From a virus: a DNA stretch of 46,400 nt. The DNA is taken from positions 1 to 46,400 of IMG/VR virus record IMGVR_UViG_3300027985_000579, one strand, 5' to 3'. Below the pieces are notes generated by a model, which worked only from the letters and a program-made list of their open reading frames with translations, was not told the DNA's origin and made no database searches. The position numbers and the translations under genes are program-made. Position 1 is the stretch's first letter, and each line of letters opens with the position of its first letter. This document shows positions 9,267 to 45,675 of the stretch, one piece after another.

Positions 9267-11636
9267 ATGGCGCTCAGTTTGGGCAAATATATCGCCACCG
9301 GTCTCGTGAGTGGCGGCGAAGTCGCCAGACAGATTGTTCCGTCGCAGGGAGAACTCATCGGCGCATCCGGTCAGACCGACATCCGATTGGCCGAAGCTAC
9401 CGGTGCAGTGTCCGGCGAACTGGCCGAAAAGTACAAGGCTGAGGAAGAGGCGAAGATCAAAGCCGACAACGCGGCGTTCGTCATGGATCGTGTGACCGCG
9501 TTCGAGGACGAGACTCGCACCCAGCAGAACACGTACCTGGAGCGCCTGGGCAAGAACGCTGACGGCATCGACCGCGAGGCCACGGGGTTCGCCAGTGAAG
9601 CAACCGAGCGGGCCTTGGACGGGGTTACGGACGAGCGTGTGCGTGTCGCGATCATCGACCAGTTGAGCAGCCGACGCCGGTCCTTCCTCAACACGATCGA
9701 CAACCACTCGCGCACTCAACGGCTGGCGTCGTTCCGTAACACGCAGGTCGCCCGACAGACCGGTCTCCAGCAGGACTTTCTCAGTACGGGTACGCCTGAG
9801 GAAGAAGCCGAGGTCATCCGCAACCTCTCGCTGACTACGCAGTCCTTGGGGTTGGCACAGGGCCGGTCGCCCGAGGAGATCGAGATCGACTTGGCCGGGC
9901 AGGTGTCCAAGGTCACGAGTTCCAAAGCCGTGACCATCGCTGGCACTGACCCTCAGGCCGCGCTCAACTACTACAACGAGCACGAGGCGTCGATCCTTCC
10001 CTTGGACCGGGCCGGGCTCCGAGACCGCATTCAAGGGAAGATCGACGAGCAGCAGCGCAAGGTCGAGAAGGCACGCAAGGATAAGCGGGCCGAGTTGGTG
10101 GGCGGGCTCGACGACGCCTATACCTACATGATCGAGACCGGCGACGCGGCCAACATGCAGAATATCTCAACGTCCCTTCGCGCCATGGGCTTCGACGACG
10201 ACGCCAGCGATGTGGAACTCCAGGTCCGGGCCGGGTCCATGGCCTACAACATCGTGAGCCAGGATCAGTCCGAGGCGTTTACTGCCCGGCTCCAGAATGC
10301 TCAAGCGGCATTCCCTGTTCACGGTGTGGAAAATGCCGCCGACATCGTGAAGGCCCGGGACATGGCGACCCAGGCGATCGCCAAGCAGGCCAAGGCGTTT
10401 CAGGCCGACCCCGCCGGGTATGTGGACGCCAGTATCCCGGGCGCGATCAACGGTCCCTCGCGCATCCGGGCCCGGTTGGAACGCCAGCGCGAGTTGGGCG
10501 ACGGGCTCAACTACTCGCCCACGGCCCTTACGTTGAACGAGAAGAAGGCATTCGCCAACAAATGGAACGAGTTGGAGTCGGCCCGCGACAAGCTGGACTT
10601 CGCCGTAAGCTTGGAGGCCGAGTACGGCGACTTTACCCCGCAGGTCTACAAAGAGGCGGGGTTCCCGGTCGGGGCCATGGCCGCCGCTGATTTGGTCAAG
10701 ACCAACTTCACCAGTGAGGCCGACGCAGAGTTGCTGTTGGCCGCGTCCACGCTCAAGCCTGACGAGATTCCTACGCGGCCCGACCTCAGCCGCGCCACCG
10801 TGCAGTCCGCCGTGCAGGACTCCCAGGTGTTCGGCGTGTACACCCATCTTGCGGCCCTGGCCGGTGCGGACGTGACGCTCCAGCGCACGGTGCAGGGGCT
10901 CCAGGCCGCGTTGAGCAACGCCGTGCTCCTGTCCGGCGACCCGGACAAGGCATCCATGCTCGACAACTTCTACGGCGTCATCAACGACGACGAGTACGTG
11001 CTGACCTACGACAAGCAGCGCGTTCAGGACAACAAGCTGGAGGACGCCCTGGCCGCCCGCAAGCAATCCGCCAGGGCCTCGGTCGTTGGCGTTACCGATC
11101 CCAACAACCTCGTGTCCCGTCTGTTCGGGTCGTCCTACGACAATGCCACCGCGTGGATCAACGCGCCGGACGGCAACGGGTGGGTCCTCTTCAACAAGGG
11201 GTCGCAGACCATCGTGTCGGATCAGCAGGGCAATACCGTTCGTGTGACCGTGGACGACGTGAACGCCTACGTGCCCCGGGGGGACCCGTTTGACTATACG
11301 GGCGAGGCGTCGTTCATCGGCGGCACAGGGGAGCCCACGGGTTTCGGCAATAGGGCGGACGGGACGGAGAAAGGCAACGGGTTCTTCGGCACCCTGACCC
11401 GGTCCGATGGTGGAATCTCCACCGAGCTTTCCGTGGGAGTGGAGTTCGATGGTGTTGAGACCGAAATTCCCCTGCTCGTTCCCACGCTCACTTCCTCGGA
11501 AATCGACTCGTTGCTCGAAGGGGACGAGCCGACTGACGCGATCATGCGTAAGGCCGTGAAGCACGCACAGGATCGCATCGCGGACGGCAAGAGTCCTTTT
11601 GCCCAGGCCGGTGAACAGCAGCGGAGGCCGCGCTAA
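9267..11636 (+). CDS. Internal virion (ejection) protein, 789 aa
   Basis: Long helical N-terminal two thirds with heptad-like Ala/Gln/Glu/Arg segments (about residues 50-300). A C-terminal module (about 690-780), FGNRADGTEKGNGFFGTL...STELSVGV...TEIPLLVPTL, ends DRIADGKSPF. This module occurs at the ends of many podovirus internal proteins and lacks a known catalytic site. Position and size match the T7 gp15-type ejection protein. No lytic transglycosylase Glu motif was seen. ATG 9267 has AGGAGAGG upstream. Confidence 0.72.
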   Translation: MALSLGKYIATGLVSGGEVARQIVPSQGELIGASGQTDIRLAEATGAVSGELAEKYKAEEEAKIKADNAAFVMDRVTAFEDETRTQQNTYLERLGKNADGIDREATGFASEATERALDGVTDERVRVAIIDQLSSRRRSFLNTIDNHSRTQRLASFRNTQVARQTGLQQDFLSTGTPEEEAEVIRNLSLTTQSLGLAQGRSPEEIEIDLAGQVSKVTSSKAVTIAGTDPQAALNYYNEHEASILPLDRAGLRDRIQGKIDEQQRKVEKARKDKRAELVGGLDDAYTYMIETGDAANMQNISTSLRAMGFDDDASDVELQVRAGSMAYNIVSQDQSEAFTARLQNAQAAFPVHGVENAADIVKARDMATQAIAKQAKAFQADPAGYVDASIPGAINGPSRIRARLERQRELGDGLNYSPTALTLNEKKAFANKWNELESARDKLDFAVSLEAEYGDFTPQVYKEAGFPVGAMAAADLVKTNFTSEADAELLLAASTLKPDEIPTRPDLSRATVQSAVQDSQVFGVYTHLAALAGADVTLQRTVQGLQAALSNAVLLSGDPDKASMLDNFYGVINDDEYVLTYDKQRVQDNKLEDALAARKQSARASVVGVTDPNNLVSRLFGSSYDNATAWINAPDGNGWVLFNKGSQTIVSDQQGNTVRVTVDDVNAYVPRGDPFDYTGEASFIGGTGEPTGFGNRADGTEKGNGFFGTLTRSDGGISTELSVGVEFDGVETEIPLLVPTLTSSEIDSLLEGDEPTDAIMRKAVKHAQDRIADGKSPFAQAGEQQRRPR

Positions 11637-12967
11637 TGAGACTACCTTCTGGCATCCGAGTTGCAGACGAGAGGGACAGGGCGTTCGACGCCGTGGGTTA
11701 CACACCCACCCTCAGCGAGGGTCTGAGCGCCAAGGTATCCGAGGGTTTCCGGTTCACCACCACGCGGATGTTACTCGACGGTGCAGCGATCACGGCGGCA
11801 GAACGTGAGGCATACGGTTACTCCCCCACCGAGGAAGAGGGGGAGGCGTCCATGTTCGGCTTCGGCCAAGAGATCAGCCAAGCGAACATCCGTGAGGCCA
11901 AGGCCAAGTTTCTCACGCCCGACGAATACCGACAGAGCAAGTATTTCCGCGAGGGCGTGGAGTGGGAGGAAGGGTACACCGAACAGCGTGCCCGCATCCT
12001 GGCCGAGAACTACGACCAGCGCCGGTACATCGACGATATCATCCAGCGCCGTGACCGCGTGGCCGGTGTCGGTGAGAGGGTGCTCGGTTTCGGCGCGTCC
12101 CTCCTCGGCAGTCTCCCGGACCCCGTGAACCTCGTGCCCTTCACCAGTGGGTTAAAGGCCGGGTCCTTGGTCGGAAAGGTCGGGCTCGGCGTGGCCGAGG
12201 GCATCGGTGGTACACTCCTGGCCGATGCGCTGGTCCTGCCGGACCTCAAGCGCCAGGGTGAAGACGTAGGCATGGCCGACCTCGTGGCCGACCTCGTGGC
12301 CGGGGCGGTCCTGGGCGGGGCCATGGGGGCATTCGGCCATGGTGTGCGCAAAGGCCTTGACGCCCTGGCCGAGCGTCGCCGCCCTCACGTGGACGCGGCC
12401 GTGCGCGAGGCGGCCAGGGCCATGGACGCGCCCCACATCGAGGCCGTGCTGCGGGATGCGCCCGAGGGCTTCAACGACTTGCTGGCTTCCAGGTACTGGA
12501 CCGGTGAGGCGGGTGGCAGGGCTATGACCCCCGAGGAACTGATCGAGGCCAAGTACGGTTCTCGTTTCGAGATCACGGGGCAGGACCGTGCCGACCTGTA
12601 CGCGGCCATGGAGAAGGCCATCGCGGATGTGGCCGATGGCCGGGATGTGGACGTGACGGAAGTTTTGCGTAACAGCCCGATCTATGAGAAGCTCCCCCCT
12701 GAGGCCAGGACGATGATCGACCAGGGCCGGTTCACCACTGACCCCGAGGTATCCGCCGCCGAGCGGTTGGCCGAGCAGGGGCCGGACGATGTGCCGGTAG
12801 AACAGGTCGAGCTTGACGAGGTTCAGCGCTTGAGGGACGAGGGTCTGGTCGACCCCGAGGATGACCTGCGGTTGGCAGAAGCGCAGGAAGTCGAAGCGAA
12901 AATTGATGCAGCGGAGGAAGCGGGATTGAGCGCGATTGAATGCATTGCGGGAGTGATCAATGGCTAA
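11636..12967 (+). CDS. Internal virion protein, 443 aa
   Basis: Starts on the last base of the previous stop codon (TAATG). The N-terminal 140 residues are charged and helical. A glycine/alanine-rich hydrophobic region follows (about residues 143-236: LGFGASLLGSLPDPVNLVPF, then VADLVAGAVLGGAMGAFGHG) that could insert in a membrane. The C-terminus is strongly acidic. This composition suits an ejected protein helping to form the trans-envelope channel. No enzymatic motif is visible. The 3' end overlaps the next gene by 8 bases. Confidence 0.65.
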   Translation: MRLPSGIRVADERDRAFDAVGYTPTLSEGLSAKVSEGFRFTTTRMLLDGAAITAAEREAYGYSPTEEEGEASMFGFGQEISQANIREAKAKFLTPDEYRQSKYFREGVEWEEGYTEQRARILAENYDQRRYIDDIIQRRDRVAGVGERVLGFGASLLGSLPDPVNLVPFTSGLKAGSLVGKVGLGVAEGIGGTLLADALVLPDLKRQGEDVGMADLVADLVAGAVLGGAMGAFGHGVRKGLDALAERRRPHVDAAVREAARAMDAPHIEAVLRDAPEGFNDLLASRYWTGEAGGRAMTPEELIEAKYGSRFEITGQDRADLYAAMEKAIADVADGRDVDVTEVLRNSPIYEKLPPEARTMIDQGRFTTDPEVSAAERLAEQGPDDVPVEQVELDEVQRLRDEGLVDPEDDLRLAEAQEVEAKIDAAEEAGLSAIECIAGVING

Positions 12968-15577: not shown

Positions 15578-17263
15578 ATGACGGTCGAGACCAAAATCAC
15601 GAAGAAAGAGTACAACGGAGACGACACGACCGGGCCGTGGGCAATCCCTTTCCCCCTGCCCGCAAACACCGACGTTGGCGCTGTGTTGACCGATTCTCTC
15701 GGTACGGAAACCATGCTCACCTACGGCACGGATTTCACCGTGACCAAGTACACGGCTCCTTCGGTTGGGGGGACGGCCACAACCGCGAACGCCGTTCCTG
15801 TTGGATCGAAGATTCTCTTCTACCTCAAAGTGGACATTACTCAGAAGGTGGACTTTATCAACGTCGGGTTTACCGACGTTGAATTGGCCGAGGCCATGGG
15901 CGACAAGCTCACTCTCATCTGCCAGCAATTGGCCCGCGACGTGGACCGCGCCGTGAAGGTGGACATCACTTCGGGTGATAACCCGGAGGACCTGATCGAC
16001 CAGTTGCACACTGATGTCCTTGCAGCCGAGCAGGCATCCGCTCAAGCGCAGCAGGCGCTCAATCAACTATACACCCGGTGGAACCCTTTGTTTCAGACCA
16101 TCGACGGACAACTTGATTATCCTCTCGAATATGCGGTCGATGAGGACGGGTGGAACGCGTTAGTCATCCTTGGTGGTCTTGTTCAAAACCCCGGGACCGA
16201 CTATAAGATCGTGAATAACGGGTACACTCTCCGATTTTTGTCTCAGCCCCCGGTTGGGCAGTCTTGCCGCGTGGTCACGTCCTTGAGTTTTGCGAACCCC
16301 GACTTGGATTTGCAAATCCAGAATATCCTCGCCGGGCTCAGTGCTCTCGCCACCGAGACGAACACCGGCCTCTCTCAGTTCGCTACCATCCAAGAGACCT
16401 TGGATGGTATCCGTAGTGATAGAGCGGTTAGCCCTGCCAATCTCGCAACTCGAATTGCTGTCGAGACCGAGGAAATCAAAAGCGAAAGAAGAATTCAGGC
16501 CACGGGGACGGTTTTAATGTATGTCAATCCGGCCACTGGGAGCGACTCAAACGACGGAATTTCTTCGGTCACGGCGATGGCAAGCATTCAGGCGGCCTAC
16601 AACAAGCTGCTTACCGAATACGATCTTCGTGCCGTTGAGGCGCAAATTCTCCTTGAAAATGGCACGTATAACACCGGCTTGAGCGCTTACGCAACCCCGA
16701 ATACTGCGTCTGGGTCCTTGGCTATCATCGGTAATGTCGCTGATCCGACCTATGTAATGCTGTCAAACAACGCCAACATCTACGTCGCGTTTGGTGCGAG
16801 AGTATGGGTCTCTGGACTCTCCTTTGATACCTCGACGCAGAACAACCTGATGGCGGATCATGGCGGATTCCTTGGCGTTGCTGGCAATATGAAGTTCGGG
16901 CAAACCAACGGCAATCACATGCTGGCAGATAATGGCGGAGAGATTCTTATCTCCGCCACCGTATATGCAATTTCTGGTGGTGCCTATTCTCATCTACAAG
17001 CTGGAGTAAACGCAGTAATCAGAAACACGGCTGCGTTCGTCGTTACTGTAACGACGAACGTGTCTATTTCGTATTTTGCTAACGCTTTAATGGGTGGTGT
17101 GATGAGCATCACGTCTGCAACGTGGAGTCTGTCCGGTACTGTTACAGGAGCCAGGGGGTACTTCAGTACCAACGCAGTGTGCAACACTGGCGGCGGAGGG
17201 GCAAACTACTTCCCTGGAACAACTGCGATCGTTTACGCTGGTACAGGAGAGCAATATGTTTAA
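15578..17263 (+). CDS. Tail fibre/tailspike protein
   Basis: The 561-residue protein has two parts. The N-terminal about 150 residues (TKKEYNGDDTTGPWAIPFPL..., then VDFINVGFTDVELAEAMGDK and a short coiled segment) resemble the virion-anchoring domain of podovirus tail fibres. From about residue 310 (YVNPATGSDSNDGIS...MASIQAAYN) the sequence becomes a parallel beta-helix of pectate-lyase type with repeated short strands and an N-rich register, ending in the conserved GANYFPGTTA...GTGEQY tip common to many tailspikes. It should bind, and may cleave, a host surface glycan; no catalytic residues can be assigned. Confidence 0.8.
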   Translation: MTVETKITKKEYNGDDTTGPWAIPFPLPANTDVGAVLTDSLGTETMLTYGTDFTVTKYTAPSVGGTATTANAVPVGSKILFYLKVDITQKVDFINVGFTDVELAEAMGDKLTLICQQLARDVDRAVKVDITSGDNPEDLIDQLHTDVLAAEQASAQAQQALNQLYTRWNPLFQTIDGQLDYPLEYAVDEDGWNALVILGGLVQNPGTDYKIVNNGYTLRFLSQPPVGQSCRVVTSLSFANPDLDLQIQNILAGLSALATETNTGLSQFATIQETLDGIRSDRAVSPANLATRIAVETEEIKSERRIQATGTVLMYVNPATGSDSNDGISSVTAMASIQAAYNKLLTEYDLRAVEAQILLENGTYNTGLSAYATPNTASGSLAIIGNVADPTYVMLSNNANIYVAFGARVWVSGLSFDTSTQNNLMADHGGFLGVAGNMKFGQTNGNHMLADNGGEILISATVYAISGGAYSHLQAGVNAVIRNTAAFVVTVTTNVSISYFANALMGGVMSITSATWSLSGTVTGARGYFSTNAVCNTGGGGANYFPGTTAIVYAGTGEQYV

Positions 17264-17675
17264 CGTATACAACCCGGCAGATCATTACTGGCTTTTGGCT
17301 GACGGTACTGTGTATTCATCCTCACGCATGGCGTACCTCCAAGCCGATGACGCTACCTATCAGGCGTGGCTTGTAGCAGGCGGCATTCCCACGGCGTACC
17401 CGAAAGACGCCGACGGGGATGAGTCGGAAAAGGAACTCGCAGTCGTACTCGGAGTCCACGGGCTGTACGTGTCCCTGGCCGAGAAACGCAGAGCCGAACG
17501 CAATGAACGAATCGTGCAACTGCGTTGGCGTATCGAGCGGCACAACGATCAAGTAGCTCTTCTCATGACCCCCGACGAACCGCTGACCCCGTTGCTGGAA
17601 TGCGTGCAGGCCTTGCGTGACGTTCCTCAACAGGACGGATTCCCCGAGATCGTGGAATGGCCTGTTGTACCGTAA
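17256..17675 (+). CDS. Tail fibre assembly chaperone-like protein
   Basis: 139 residues; starts within the end of the spike gene. The C-terminal half, RWRIERHNDQVALLMTPDEP followed by LRDVPQQDGFPEIVEWPVVP, follows the pattern R-x-x-L-x-x-(S/T)D-w...D.PLt...w..YR..LRD.PQQ.GFP..v.WP of tail-fibre assembly/APC-type chaperones. These proteins help fold and trimerise the fibre encoded next to them. The N-terminus (MFNVYNPADHYWLLADGTVY) is a short beta region probably recognising the spike tip. Confidence 0.75.
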   Translation: MFNVYNPADHYWLLADGTVYSSSRMAYLQADDATYQAWLVAGGIPTAYPKDADGDESEKELAVVLGVHGLYVSLAEKRRAERNERIVQLRWRIERHNDQVALLMTPDEPLTPLLECVQALRDVPQQDGFPEIVEWPVVP

Positions 17676-17679
17676 TTTA

Positions 17680-17708
17680 TTGACATTTCACTCGCACCGG
17701 TAAATACT
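17680..17708 (+). promoter_or_regulatory. Sigma70-type promoter before a structured RNA
   Basis: TTGACA (17680-17685), 17 bp, AATACT (17703-17708). The -35 is perfect. Transcription would begin near 17715, directly before the structured RNA, and lies between the chaperone gene and the next fibre-type gene. Confidence 0.75.
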
Positions 17709-17712
17709 CCCC

Positions 17713-17835
17713 GTGTGGGCAGTCTCGGCCAAGACTGAGGGCGTCGGATCGCTGCACCGACGCCCGCCCCACACACCGAAGCAGCAAAAAGCCCCCACAC
17801 CCGTGCAGCGACGGGCCGATGGGGGCTTTCATCTT
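17713..17835 (+). ncRNA. Structured RNA with terminator and kissing-loop potential
   Basis: A closing stem (17713-17719 with 17768-17774) encloses two hairpins: P2, a 5-bp stem AGTCT/AGACT (17721-17736), and P3, a 9-bp perfect stem (17739-17747 with 17757-17765) with 9-base loop ATCGCTGCA. A Rho-independent-type terminator follows: AAAGCCCCCA (17788-17797) with TGGGGGCTTT (17820-17829), holding an inner CCCGT/ACGGG stem whose 6-base loop is GCAGCG. That loop is exactly complementary to CGCTGC in the P3 loop. The unit lies between a promoter and the SD of the next gene, so it may be a free small RNA or an attenuating leader of 17850-18977. Confidence 0.7.
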
Positions 17836-17849
17836 TGGAGGAAACAATA

Positions 17850-18977
17850 GTGACCACGAGAATTTCTTGCGGAATGGTTGATGATCTGTGCCGGGATCAA
17901 TTGAGAAATTCATACTCGTATCTGTTCCAGGACGAAACAGAACGCGATGACTATTTTTCTGAGAGCCCCGAGCAACTTTTGAATGACGGTGGAAAACAGA
18001 CCATCGTCTTTATCGGGGTGTCTGCTCTTGACTACATGTACTGGAACGGACCTGACGCTCCTGCCACCTACGACAACTCATACTGGGTCACTGTGCCCGT
18101 CAACTCTACCACCTCCGGTGACGTTCACTACTGGGGGGACCCCGCCGTTGAATTGTCGATGCGTGCCCGGCGTGATCCTGCCGACGGAAACCTCGTATTC
18201 GAGCGTCTCTTAAGCGGTGTATGGGTCGAGAAGTTCCGAATTTCCGACTCGGCCCTGGTCGATACCATGAAATTCGTCGAGGCCATGGAAATGCCCGTGG
18301 TCAAAGAGGGAGAACTGGCGTTGTATAATGCGCTGGTACGAGACGGCGACAACGGGGACATATGGGTATTGCGCCCTGTATTCATGGATTATTCGCACAA
18401 TCATTTCATGGTTGTTGCTGCACTACCGGACGGGCGGTTGCGTGTCCCGCAGAACGTGGATGCCGCTCTCATGGACCCTGAGAATGTCCCGTTGCAGTAC
18501 AAGTACGTGCTGTTTGAAACTGATTCGACGAAGATCAAACAGGCACTGGAGGCGCTCATCGGCTCATACCGACTTGACGCAAGTGCGATCAAGAATCTCC
18601 CTGGTGGTGATCTGGCGATCATCGGCGTCGTTGGTGAAAATTTGGGCACGTTCACGGGGTCTATCATCCCTGACAACACAACGGTTAAAGTTGCATTACA
18701 GTCTCTCGAAACGGTGCTCGACGCCATCGATGTAGACGCAACGATCACTTCGTTTTACAACAGCACCAAGTACACCATTAGCGGACTCACTTTGTCCGCT
18801 AACGTGTGGACTGAAATTCAGCACAACCTCAACTCCATGTATCCGTCGTCCATCAAACTATACGGCGGACTGGAGGACGTGACGAGTGCATACGATATCG
18901 AGATCGTGAACGCCAACGTGATCCGGGTCAAACACTCTATCACGTACTCCAACGTGACCGTCATCGTGAGGAAGTAG
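17850..18977 (+). CDS. Putative second tail fibre or receptor-binding structural protein
   Basis: 375 residues. GTG 17850 is chosen because GGAGGAAAC at 17836-17844 is its SD; an in-frame TTG at 17835 lies inside that SD. The protein is rich in Tyr, Asp and short beta strands, with central helices (SALVDTMKFVEAMEMPVVKEG; DSTKIKQALEALIGSYRLDA) and a C-terminal beta domain (ISGLTLSANVWTEIQHNLNS...VIRVKHSITYSNVTVIV) resembling small C-terminal domains of phage fibres. It has its own upstream promoter and structured RNA, unusual in an otherwise continuous late operon. Function inferred from position only. Confidence 0.5.
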   Translation: MTTRISCGMVDDLCRDQLRNSYSYLFQDETERDDYFSESPEQLLNDGGKQTIVFIGVSALDYMYWNGPDAPATYDNSYWVTVPVNSTTSGDVHYWGDPAVELSMRARRDPADGNLVFERLLSGVWVEKFRISDSALVDTMKFVEAMEMPVVKEGELALYNALVRDGDNGDIWVLRPVFMDYSHNHFMVVAALPDGRLRVPQNVDAALMDPENVPLQYKYVLFETDSTKIKQALEALIGSYRLDASAIKNLPGGDLAIIGVVGENLGTFTGSIIPDNTTVKVALQSLETVLDAIDVDATITSFYNSTKYTISGLTLSANVWTEIQHNLNSMYPSSIKLYGGLEDVTSAYDIEIVNANVIRVKHSITYSNVTVIVRK

Positions 18978-39657: not shown

Positions 39658-39981
39658 TTAGATGTTGAAAAGGGCTTCGACGCCGCGAACGCGGATCACA
39701 TCGCGGACGCGCTTGGTCTTGGGTTCACGGAATGAGTAGACGCCGCCGCGCTTACCAATGAAAAAGTGATGATGCTTCCAGATGACGTAACCAAACGTGC
39801 CGGGAATGCCGTTGTCCGTGGTCACGCTCACGCGAATTTCACCGTCAGGGCACCCGTGAACCTCGAAGGTGCGGAAGCGGTAAGTGTCGCCGTGGAAATA
39901 CATGCTGCGGATGCGGGCCAAGGCCCACTCAATGGCCTTTTCCTGGGCCGAGGTCATGTAGATGTCAATGGTGGTTTGCAT
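39658..39981 (-). CDS. Unknown protein, 107 aa
   Basis: ATG 39981 preceded by CCCAACCGGAGATAGGACA, a leader variant; the longer reading to 40071 crosses the previous gene's stop region. MQTTIDIYMTSAQEKAIEWA, then RSMYFHGDTYRFRTFEVHGC and a beta-rich C-terminus ending VRGVEALFNI. It could be a small enzyme-like alpha/beta domain; no motif found. Confidence 0.6.
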   Translation of the reverse strand: MQTTIDIYMTSAQEKAIEWALARIRSMYFHGDTYRFRTFEVHGCPDGEIRVSVTTDNGIPGTFGYVIWKHHHFFIGKRGGVYSFREPKTKRVRDVIRVRGVEALFNI

Positions 39982-40064
39982 TGTCCTATCTCCGGTTGGG
40001 TTGGTTGCCTCATCAGTGACCGGGAACCGCCCGGCCAGACGCCCCCATACGGGGCGTTTCGGCT

Positions 40065-40322
40065 TTACCACTTGGAAATAATATGGCGCTCAATGACGCG
40101 AACGGACGTGATGACCTCAATGACTTCATCGTAGATCATGCCGATGGTAGACGCGCGAATGGTGTAGCGGTTGCTGTGCTTGTCGTTATCTGTGGCGATC
40201 ATTACAAGACGGCTCCCGTAGTGCTCAAGAATCGCGGCGATGTGCTTGGCGTCCACGCTGCTGATACAAAAAGTCTTCGTGTTGCGGCGTTCGTGAATCG
40301 GGGTGTAATTGGTGGTGGTCAT
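40065..40322 (-). CDS. Unknown protein, 85 aa
   Basis: ATG 40322 with leader CCCAACCGGAGGACAC. MTTTNYTPIHERRNTKTFCI, then SSVDAKHIAAILEHYGSRLV and a beta-rich C-terminus (MIYDEVIEVITSVRVIERHI). It directly follows the promoter at 40361-40390. Confidence 0.6.
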   Translation of the reverse strand: MTTTNYTPIHERRNTKTFCISSVDAKHIAAILEHYGSRLVMIATDNDKHSNRYTIRASTIGMIYDEVIEVITSVRVIERHIISKW

Positions 40323-43180: not shown

Positions 43181-43326
43181 TCGGCGGCCCTTTTGTTGAT
43201 GATTTTAATCCTCTACAGAGAGTGACCCCCCTCAACTTCAAGACCCCCTTCCGCCGCTAGGGGGCGGTCGGTTTCTGTAGAACCCCGCCTAAAACTTGAC
43301 GATCTGAAAAAATTCGGAGCATCTAC
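43181..43326 (+). other. Intergenic region between TerS and TerL
   Basis: 146 bases with no convincing gene. GACCCCC occurs twice, and AGGGGGCGG plus a short CCGCC...GGCGG element could form a weak hairpin. No promoter is evident. The gap is unusually long for a terminase pair. Confidence 0.5.
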
Positions 43327-44805
43327 ATGCAGCGTAATGAAGACATCCTACTAGCCGACAAGGTGGCCGAGTTCTACGCAAACCCGCTGGGCTTCGTTCG
43401 ATTCGCCTACGATTGGGGCTATGGCGACTTGACGGGCTTCGATGGGCCGGACGTGTGGCAGGAAGAGTTCCTGGACCAGTTGGGCTTCGGCATCAAGCGC
43501 AACAAGTTCGACGGCATCCACCCCGTGGCACCCGTGCAAATGGCCCGGACCAGTGGTCACGGTATCGGGAAGTCCGCGTTGTCGTCGTGGCTGACGGACT
43601 TCATCATGAGCACGCGGCCCCACTCGAAGGGGGTCATCACCGCGAACACGGCCCCGCAGTTGAGGACCAAGACTTGGGCCGAACTTTCCAAATGGACCAA
43701 GCGGTGCATCACGGGTCATTGGTTCCACATGAGCGGCAGCGGCCAGTTCATGTTTATGCATCACAAGGACCACCCGGAGACATGGCGTGTGGACGCCCAG
43801 ACCTGCGCCAAGGAGAACAGCGAGGCATTCGCGGGCCTGCACGCGGCCAACTCCACACCGTGGTATCTGTTCGACGAGGCGTCGGCCATCGACAACATCA
43901 TCTGGCAGGTGGCCGAGGGCGGCATGACGGACGGTGAGCCCATGTGGTTCGTCTTCGGCAACCCGACCCGAGGCAGCGGCGCTTTCTTCGACTGCTTCCA
44001 CAGGCAGAAGCACCGGTGGAACACGGCCAAGATTGACTCGCGCATGGCGAAGATGACCAACAAGGCGAAGATCAAGGAGTGGATCGACGACTACGGGGAG
44101 GACAGCGACTTCGTGCGCGTGCGCGTGCGCGGCGAGTTCCCCCGGTCCGGTAGTTGCCAGTTCATCGCCACGGACATCGTGAGCGCGGCCATGGACAGGG
44201 TGGTGGAGGAAGAGGTGTACAAGCGACTGCCGATCATGCTGGGCGTGGACCCTGCCCGCTTCGGTGAGGACTCCACCGTGTTCACCCTGCGTCAAGGAAG
44301 AAAGGTGTGGCCCCAGCAGGTCTTTCGCGGTTATGACACCATGCAGGTGGCTCAGCAGGCGATCGAGACCTTCCGGCACCGGCAGGCGGACTACTGCTTC
44401 GTGGACGGCAACGGCTTGGGCGCGGGTGTGGTGGACCGCATGCGGCAGCTTGGCTACCCGGTCATCGACGTGCAGGCCGGGGCCGGGGCCACGGACCGAG
44501 CCCGGTACAAAAACAAGAGGGCTGAGATGTGGGGTGAGATGCGCGATTGGCTGCGCAACGACAGCCCGGACCTGCCGTTCGATGAGGACCTCAAGGCGCA
44601 GTTGACCTGCGTGGAGTACGGCTTCACGCCGGGCGACCAGATCAAGTTGGAGAGCAAGGACGACATCAAGAAGCGCGGGCTCCCCTCCCCGGACAACGCG
44701 GACTCACTGGCTCTCACGTTCGCCGAGCCCGTCTGCGGCCCTAATCCGTGGGAGCAGGACCCCCACGCGGGAGACCCGGACGAGTACGAGTGGTGGAAGT
44801 ATTGA
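43327..44805 (+). CDS. Terminase large subunit (TerL)
   Basis: 492 residues. ATPase domain: Walker A GHGIGKSA (77-84), Walker B WYLFDE (179-184), and coupling motif VFGNPTRGSG (about 209-218). RNase H-like nuclease domain: GVDPARFGEDSTVF (Asp308 and acidic partners), VDGNGLGAGVVDRM, and DNADSLALTF near the C-terminus. It pumps DNA into the procapsid through the portal and cuts concatemers. The stop codon overlaps the -35 of the promoter at 44802. Confidence 0.93.
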   Translation: MQRNEDILLADKVAEFYANPLGFVRFAYDWGYGDLTGFDGPDVWQEEFLDQLGFGIKRNKFDGIHPVAPVQMARTSGHGIGKSALSSWLTDFIMSTRPHSKGVITANTAPQLRTKTWAELSKWTKRCITGHWFHMSGSGQFMFMHHKDHPETWRVDAQTCAKENSEAFAGLHAANSTPWYLFDEASAIDNIIWQVAEGGMTDGEPMWFVFGNPTRGSGAFFDCFHRQKHRWNTAKIDSRMAKMTNKAKIKEWIDDYGEDSDFVRVRVRGEFPRSGSCQFIATDIVSAAMDRVVEEEVYKRLPIMLGVDPARFGEDSTVFTLRQGRKVWPQQVFRGYDTMQVAQQAIETFRHRQADYCFVDGNGLGAGVVDRMRQLGYPVIDVQAGAGATDRARYKNKRAEMWGEMRDWLRNDSPDLPFDEDLKAQLTCVEYGFTPGDQIKLESKDDIKKRGLPSPDNADSLALTFAEPVCGPNPWEQDPHAGDPDEYEWWKY

Positions 44806-44831
44806 CAACCCCGGCCCGCCCGTGGTAGAGT
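44802..44831 (+). promoter_or_regulatory. Sigma70-type promoter at the TerL stop
   Basis: TTGACA (44802-44807), 18 bp, TAGAGT (44826-44831). The start would be near 44838, ahead of a short terminated transcript. Confidence 0.7.
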
Positions 44832-44837
44832 ACACAC

Positions 44838-44908
44838 GTTAGGCACTCCATGCGACAAGCCCCTCTCGTGTTGACCCCCATCGCTGCAATCGGTGGGGGT
44901 CTTTCTTT
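44838..44908 (+). ncRNA. Candidate short RNA ending in a terminator
   Basis: About 70 nt run from the predicted start to a terminator: GACCCCCA (44873-44880) with TGGGGGTC (44894-44901), then TTTCTTTG. The 13-base loop begins TCGCTGCA. Counting the preceding A, it shares ATCGCTGCA with the P3 loop of the 17.7-kb RNA, and it is complementary (8 bases) to that RNA's terminator loop region. There is no ORF. It may be a free RNA or a leader controlling 44977. Confidence 0.55.
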
Positions 44909-44976: not shown

Positions 44977-45675
44977 ATGACCAGCATTGGAACCTGCCCC
45001 GTTTGCTCTGACCACACCGACCGTCGCCCCAATTGCGACATCTGGGACTGCCGCAACTGCGACTGGTCGGGCCCGTTCCTGGACGGCGTGAGCCGCACCG
45101 TCAAGGTCCGCAAGCACAACGCGGGCGGCCTCGTCTGCGAGATTCGCGATCCGCGCAACACCAAGCACTTCACCCGCGCCGAGGGTCGCAACCTGACCGA
45201 TCTGGCCGAGGCCATCCGCGACTGGTTGTACCGCGAGTGCCTCACCTTCGACGTGCTCGTGTTCGAGGACACCATCCTGGGCCGCAAGCTGCGCAAAAGG
45301 GTGTCGTCCCATTTCGAGGACTCCCCGATTCTGTCCGACATCGAGCCCACCGGCGACATCTTCGACATCTTCAAGAAGTTCGCGGTGCCCAAGAAACTGA
45401 TCGTCCCCACCTTCGGCCAGTTCGACGAGTGCGACTTTATCCTCGTGGACCCGGACCTCAACAACATGAGCATCAACATGATCGGCGTGAAGGACGGCAA
45501 CTTCCACGTCACCGCCGGTTTCTCCAACGGCAAGGATACCACCCCCGCCTACCTCGTCGAGCGGACCGTCAGTTTTATTAAGCGGCGCGAACTCCCCTTG
45601 TACAAGCTGCGCTTCAACATCCTGGGCGAGGGACATTCGGCGTTCGTCGAGCACGTGAAGGAGGGCTTGAAGTAA
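44977..45675 (+). CDS. Zinc-ribbon protein of unknown function, 232 aa
   Basis: The N-terminus CPVCSDHTDRRPNCDIWDC, then RNCDWSGPF, has a CxxC...CxxC ribbon. Residues 60-150 are helical and charged, and the C-terminus is beta-rich (LIVPTFGQFDECDFILVDPD, MSINMIGVKDGNFHVTAGFS). First gene behind its own promoter; codon bias is high, similar to the capsid gene, so it is probably abundant. It could be a virion or packaging accessory; no family recognised. Confidence 0.6.
   Translation: MTSIGTCPVCSDHTDRRPNCDIWDCRNCDWSGPFLDGVSRTVKVRKHNAGGLVCEIRDPRNTKHFTRAEGRNLTDLAEAIRDWLYRECLTFDVLVFEDTILGRKLRKRVSSHFEDSPILSDIEPTGDIFDIFKKFAVPKKLIVPTFGQFDECDFILVDPDLNNMSINMIGVKDGNFHVTAGFSNGKDTTPAYLVERTVSFIKRRELPLYKLRFNILGEGHSAFVEHVKEGLK

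Follow-up and report, generated by a model that had tools for sequence, protein, structure and literature searches.

The window analysed here is a 46,400-nucleotide viral stretch (positions 1 to 46,400 of the IMG/VR record IMGVR_UViG_3300027985_000579), which carries on its plus strand a gene for a tail fibre assembly chaperone, followed by a 375-aa virion-type gene whose C-terminal ~100 aa resembles virion/tail fibre proteins of Vibrio phages. The gap between the two genes, from 17676 to 17849, contains a region (17713-17829, plus strand) for which folding predicts a closed three-way junction and then a terminator-like hairpin; its features are collected in Table 1. The minimum free energy of this element has a z of -4.1, with none of 200 dinucleotide shuffles being as stable, and among the six intergenic gaps of the window that were tested it gives the most extreme structure z (-4.56, about -4.6); in a crude sliding scan of the window that included the genes, its stability was not exceptional. 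The gap at 43181-43326, located upstream of the terminase gene, is fairly structured too (z about -2.6). A Shine-Dalgarno sequence does precede the downstream gene, as reported by the first-pass annotation, its position being that of Table 1 and not 17836.

Table 1. Features of the intergenic element and its flanking genes, in window coordinates
Feature	Position	Strand	Sequence, basis or remark
Upstream gene, tail fibre assembly chaperone (Pfam Phage_tail_APC)	17256-17675	+	absent at this place in L071
Sigma-70-like promoter TTGACA-17-AATACT	17680-17708	+	pattern match 10/12
P1, 7 bp	17713-17719/17768-17774	+	5' strand GUGUGGG, 3' strand CCCACAC; folding
P2 hairpin, 6 bp	17720-17725/17732-17737	+	CAGUCU-CGGCCA-AGACUG; folding
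P3 hairpin, 9 bp	17739-17747/17757-17765	+	folding
P3 loop ATCGCTGCA (= AUCGCUGCA)	17748-17756	+	folding
P3 loop segment UCGCUGCAC, putatively pairing with the terminator loop	17749-17757	+	complementarity, shuffles, L071
P4 5' strand CCGAAG	17776-17781	+	predicted partner CUUUGG at 17833-17838, which would cover part of the Shine-Dalgarno sequence
Linker GCAGC	17781-17785	+	possible second partner of the P3 loop
Terminator-like hairpin, outer stem	17788-17797/17820-17829	+	folding; L071 counterpart
Terminator inner hairpin	17800-17804/17811-17815	+	loop GCAGCG at 17805-17810
Terminator loop segment GUGCAGCGA, putatively pairing with the P3 loop	17803-17811	+	complementarity, shuffles, L071
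Shine-Dalgarno GGAGG of the downstream gene	17837-17841	+	sequence
Downstream virion gene, 375 aa	17850-18977	+	N-terminal ~250 aa common only to L071

The 868-aa virion protein of the window, used as query in an alignment search, brought up L071, a 43,386-base IMG/VR contig in which this protein is 53% identical; the homologue of the downstream gene shows 52% identity over the N-terminal ~250 aa, and the terminase, whose gene spans the contig ends, is 56-59% identical to that of the window. Searches by the chaperone, the 868-aa virion protein and the downstream gene gave no close relative in IMG/VR, and none was found in the phage or plasmid collections and bacterial genomes searched; the one distant chaperone match (L001) is followed by a short gap, too small for such an RNA. 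The N-terminal domain of the downstream gene occurs in no record searched besides the window and L071, without any match in phages, plasmids and bacterial genomes, and it is absent from the terminase relatives searched (62 loci collected). Phages also displayed no DNA similarity to the window or L071 regions.

At the RNA level, the 19-mer of the P3 hairpin had no match in IMG/VR, and the P1-P2 sequence pattern was found there in 108 stretches, with P1 closing in the L071 contig alone. The single-sequence model R1 was too narrow to place L071 in its proper register, and its minus-strand match in locus L149, which outscored L071, was discarded, since it consists of the last part of a reading frame and an ordinary terminator. 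When all loci were scanned with descriptors (6.9 Mb, both strands counted and duplicates included), the full layout with at least eight matches was returned in the window and L071 only; a descriptor match on the minus strand of the window (reverse coordinate 28560) is this same region read on the opposite strand. The known members of the element are two.

The L071 element is located between a fibre gene, which ends at 11925, and the homologue of the downstream gene, which starts at 12110. It comprises GTGTGGGC and a P2 hairpin, and GUGUGGGC, from the P1 5' strand of the window, is present also at L071 11964; the P3 hairpin, AGGATGGT-TGCTGTC-ACCATCCT, is followed by GCCCAC, by the linker and by a terminator hairpin with the loop TTGACAGC and a strong plus-strand U-tract, TTTTGTTTT. 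When folded alone, the L071 element has a z of -4.7. The G+C-rich stem followed by a U-tract that defines intrinsic terminators is found in both sequences, clear in L071 and weak in the window, where the plus-strand U-tract is TTTCATCTTT and a cleaner T5 run lies on the minus strand. The helix-by-helix comparison, which rests on two sequences and on a hand-made, structure-anchored alignment that leans towards structure, revealed a P1 mostly unchanged, a P2 that keeps CAGU/ACUG with one pair passing from C-G to U-G, a P3 that is rewritten and perfectly paired in L071 (at least five double changes, no broken pair) and an inner terminator stem with three double changes. The window and L071 share no reading frame over the region, and a coding explanation was thus rejected.

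The position of the element is fixed directly 5' of the same gene in both the window and L071, with a few bases between the hairpin end and the Shine-Dalgarno sequence, whereas the upstream neighbour differs, being the Phage_tail_APC chaperone in the window and, in L071, a fibre that contains a Peptidase_S74 domain. As for the downstream gene itself (window 17850-18977, considered with L149 9539-10486), its C-terminal part in the window looks, by eye, like the last part of another gene, of 315 aa, that L071 carries further downstream; this suggests that fibre-type modules were fused or split.

The two folded domains are predictions that agree in two diverged sequences, in which the loop complementarity and its position are conserved. 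In the window, CGCTGC of the P3 loop (17750-17755) and the terminator loop GCAGCG are perfectly complementary, all six bases being strictly in the loops, and with stem opening the match extends to nine bases (TCGCTGCAC at 17749-17757 against GTGCAGCGA at 17803-17811), exactly as described by the first-pass annotation. Among 4,521 hairpin pairs taken from the window and the fetched viral loci, 12 (0.27%) have at least six complementary bases within the loops, and the elements of the window and of L071 are included in these 12; shuffling of the loop letters gave P values of about 0.0017 for the window and 0.0009 for L071. Taken by itself, the complementarity in the window could be luck, since the loops had been picked after they were seen. 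The earlier proposal of a kissing loop had called for compensatory changes in related phages, and these are seen in the one relative available: the L071 P3 loop, TGCTGTC, can pair along its whole length with GACAGCA at the terminator loop, so that the pairing is retained with three of the seven loop pairs changed on both sides, four identical and none broken. Each loop pair was identified within its own sequence, independently of the hand alignment. The four central pairs, a GCUG/CAGC core, are the identical ones, and part of the complementarity may accordingly be inherited. Kissing is also plausible from the energies calculated for duplexes between the loop strands (about -8 to -13 kcal/mol), and since three of the L071 pairs changed on both sides with none broken, a kissing interaction is the best reading of the complementarity; we consider that the loop-loop contact is probably real.

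Other complementarities are present in the same region. That between the P2 loop and the terminator (UCGGCC) is absent in L071. The linker matches the P3 loop over five bases in the window, which could be chance, and over seven in L071; it might compete with the terminator loop for the P3 loop, a point to be taken as a lead and not as a finding. The L071 linker (12019-12046) contains GACAGCAG, an 8-mer identical to its terminator loop region, and the P3 loop of that contig has therefore two possible partners.

The element is most likely transcribed in the direction of the late genes, because the L071 P2 contains G-U pairs, which would be C-A on the opposite strand, and because the U-tract of L071 lies on the plus strand. 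The near-consensus, promoter-like match that had been noted in the window is confirmed there, and the same scan of L071 gave no recognisable counterpart; since L071 keeps only a TTGAC at a similar distance, with a -10 that departs from consensus, promoter-driven transcription is uncertain.

No Rfam family matches the window element or the L071 region, as the weak matches obtained (a toxic sRNA, a microRNA and glutamine-II) were far below threshold and were discarded. This result and the literature searched are consistent with the earlier statement that no phage RNA of this layout has been described, and are not proof of it. The nearest working analogy is the kissing loop of the cobalamin riboswitch, where, in the env8 example, L5 and L13 join the aptamer to the expression hairpin (PMC10907184). 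In both cases a junction domain precedes a downstream hairpin, and a loop of the junction would kiss that of the hairpin in front of the gene; kissing helices are typically of 5-7 pairs in the riboswitch and would be of 6-7 here, and, at the level of complementarity, such a contact is seen in the element, the complementary loops being conserved with double changes. Unlike the riboswitch, the junction of the element is much smaller, and the kissing hairpin is terminator-like instead of bearing the ribosome-binding site in its loop; cmscan up to an E of 10 gave no cobalamin match in the window or L071. The put RNA of HK022, of ~70 nt, consists of two adjacent stem-loops and influences transcription while it is nascent; putL is placed immediately after a promoter, and put suppresses termination through RNA polymerase (PMC9378689). 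Compared with it by description, the element has P2 and P3 lying next to each other, but closed by P1, one of them would kiss the terminator itself, and the promoter is weak in L071; action as nascent RNA is a property of put. A closed three-way junction is shared also with the small RNA sRNA-Xcc1 (RF02221), for which no kissing between a loop and a terminator is described in the literature searched; its gathering threshold is not reached in the window or the L071 region, and is reached in the related phage L070 only. There, sRNA-Xcc1 is found at 9659-9745 on the minus strand, in the tail module, directly behind the homologue of the 868-aa protein. Membership of the element in any of these three families is not claimed.

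The window contains other candidate RNAs. At 44802-44901, between the terminase gene and a gene at 44977, a second promoter-like site (TTGACA-18-TAGAGT) is followed by a short RNA and a terminator, and the hairpin of this unit holds the P3-loop 9-mer ATCGCTGCA, complementary to the terminator loop at 17803-17811; no counterpart was found after the L071 terminase. On the minus strand, a Type II hammerhead ribozyme (RF02276), which scores 54.2 bits where the threshold is 37, is located at 39999-40064, overlapping the start region of a minus-strand reading frame (39658-40071).

The reading that we favour, with somewhat less than even confidence, is that of a leader acting in cis, whose junction domain would dock on the hairpin of the terminator and restrain expression of the second fibre-type gene. 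The element would be the untranslated leader of this gene: during transcription the three-way junction (P1, P2 and P3) would form first and the terminator hairpin next, the loop of the latter would kiss the P3 loop, holding the domains docked side by side, and the docked hairpin, possibly together with P4 over part of the Shine-Dalgarno sequence, would set the readthrough or the translation of the second fibre-type protein. A leader is favoured because the element keeps to one downstream gene in spite of a different upstream neighbour, and because the hairpin ends near the Shine-Dalgarno sequence; the same architecture and place in both phages and two independent z values (-4.1 and -4.7) also argue for it. 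On the other side are the number of sequences (two), the unclear promoter of L071, the weak U-tract of the window and the loss of P4 in longer L071 transcripts. Indeed, predicted pair probabilities for P4 are 0.95-0.99 in the window and its L071 equivalent appears with the shortest transcript only; a helix covering part of the Shine-Dalgarno sequence is a lead, not a finding. Production of the RNA, kissing inside a single molecule, an action on termination or translation and any trigger for release are inferred.

The main rival, possible and not preferred, is a free-standing small RNA of ~115 nt, equipped with a promoter and a terminator of its own, that would act in trans on phage or host messages, the kissing serving to shield the P3 loop, as a possible seed, and the 3' end. 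The 10/12 promoter-like site and the terminator that bracket the element, its compact and very stable fold, the recurrence of the P3-loop 9-mer in the terminator of the other intergenic unit (44880-44888) and the three-way-junction sRNA-Xcc1 known in the tail module of a relative would all suit such an RNA; its position directly before one gene in both phages, the unclear L071 promoter and the missing counterpart of the 44880 unit after the L071 terminase make it rather doubtful. A junction and terminator of ordinary type, whose complementarity derives from chance or from shared ancestry with no function, appears improbable: about 0.2-0.3% of hairpin pairs reach six in-loop matches by chance, the sequences are two and their GCUG/CAGC core is the same, but both diverged copies possess the property, with three pairs doubly changed and none broken, paired changes rewrite the P3 and terminator stems, and no other scanned locus has the full layout with at least eight matches.

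The loops might also pair between molecules, giving dimers or larger assemblies. The packaging RNA of phi29 combines a three-way junction with complementary loops, which vary in letters between phages and join different molecules; likewise, two complementary loops per molecule would permit such contacts here, and conserved complementarity with altered letters would be expected of them. This is nevertheless quite unlikely, as the loops lie in adjacent domains with a short linker, making an internal contact easier, and nothing indicates a need of this phage for a packaging RNA; in the element, unlike phi29, the partner loop belongs to a terminator-like hairpin. Least probable of all is a strand-exchange attenuator, where GUGUGGG of P1 would alternatively pair with the terminator arm CCCCCACAC. 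The terminator arm of the window does repeat the 3' strand of P1 (CCCCACAC at 17767 and 17793), but the repeat is missing from that of L071. Moreover, transcripts lacking the 3' arm of the terminator fold into the same junction in both sequences, leaving the 5' arm unpaired, and no alternative antiterminator fold was found in the truncated transcripts of either; both results speak against strand exchange and, with it, against the choice between folds that had initially been suggested to decide termination.

Within the preferred reading of a docking leader, the element may, more speculatively, represent a class of leader RNA new to phages, with a three-way-junction domain that would control a fibre gene by docking, through a kissing loop, directly on the loop of an intrinsic terminator, the P3 loop being possibly shared by the linker and the terminator loop and the second RNA unit, at 44873-44901, possibly acting as a trans partner; this wider proposal is doubtful. 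Intrinsic terminators are usually regarded as stand-alone hairpins, and a terminator held by a loop-loop contact would be, if true, an unusual dose control of a virion protein. The element is small and self-contained, and with it the tail operons of a group of viruses with few described structured RNAs would gain one more.
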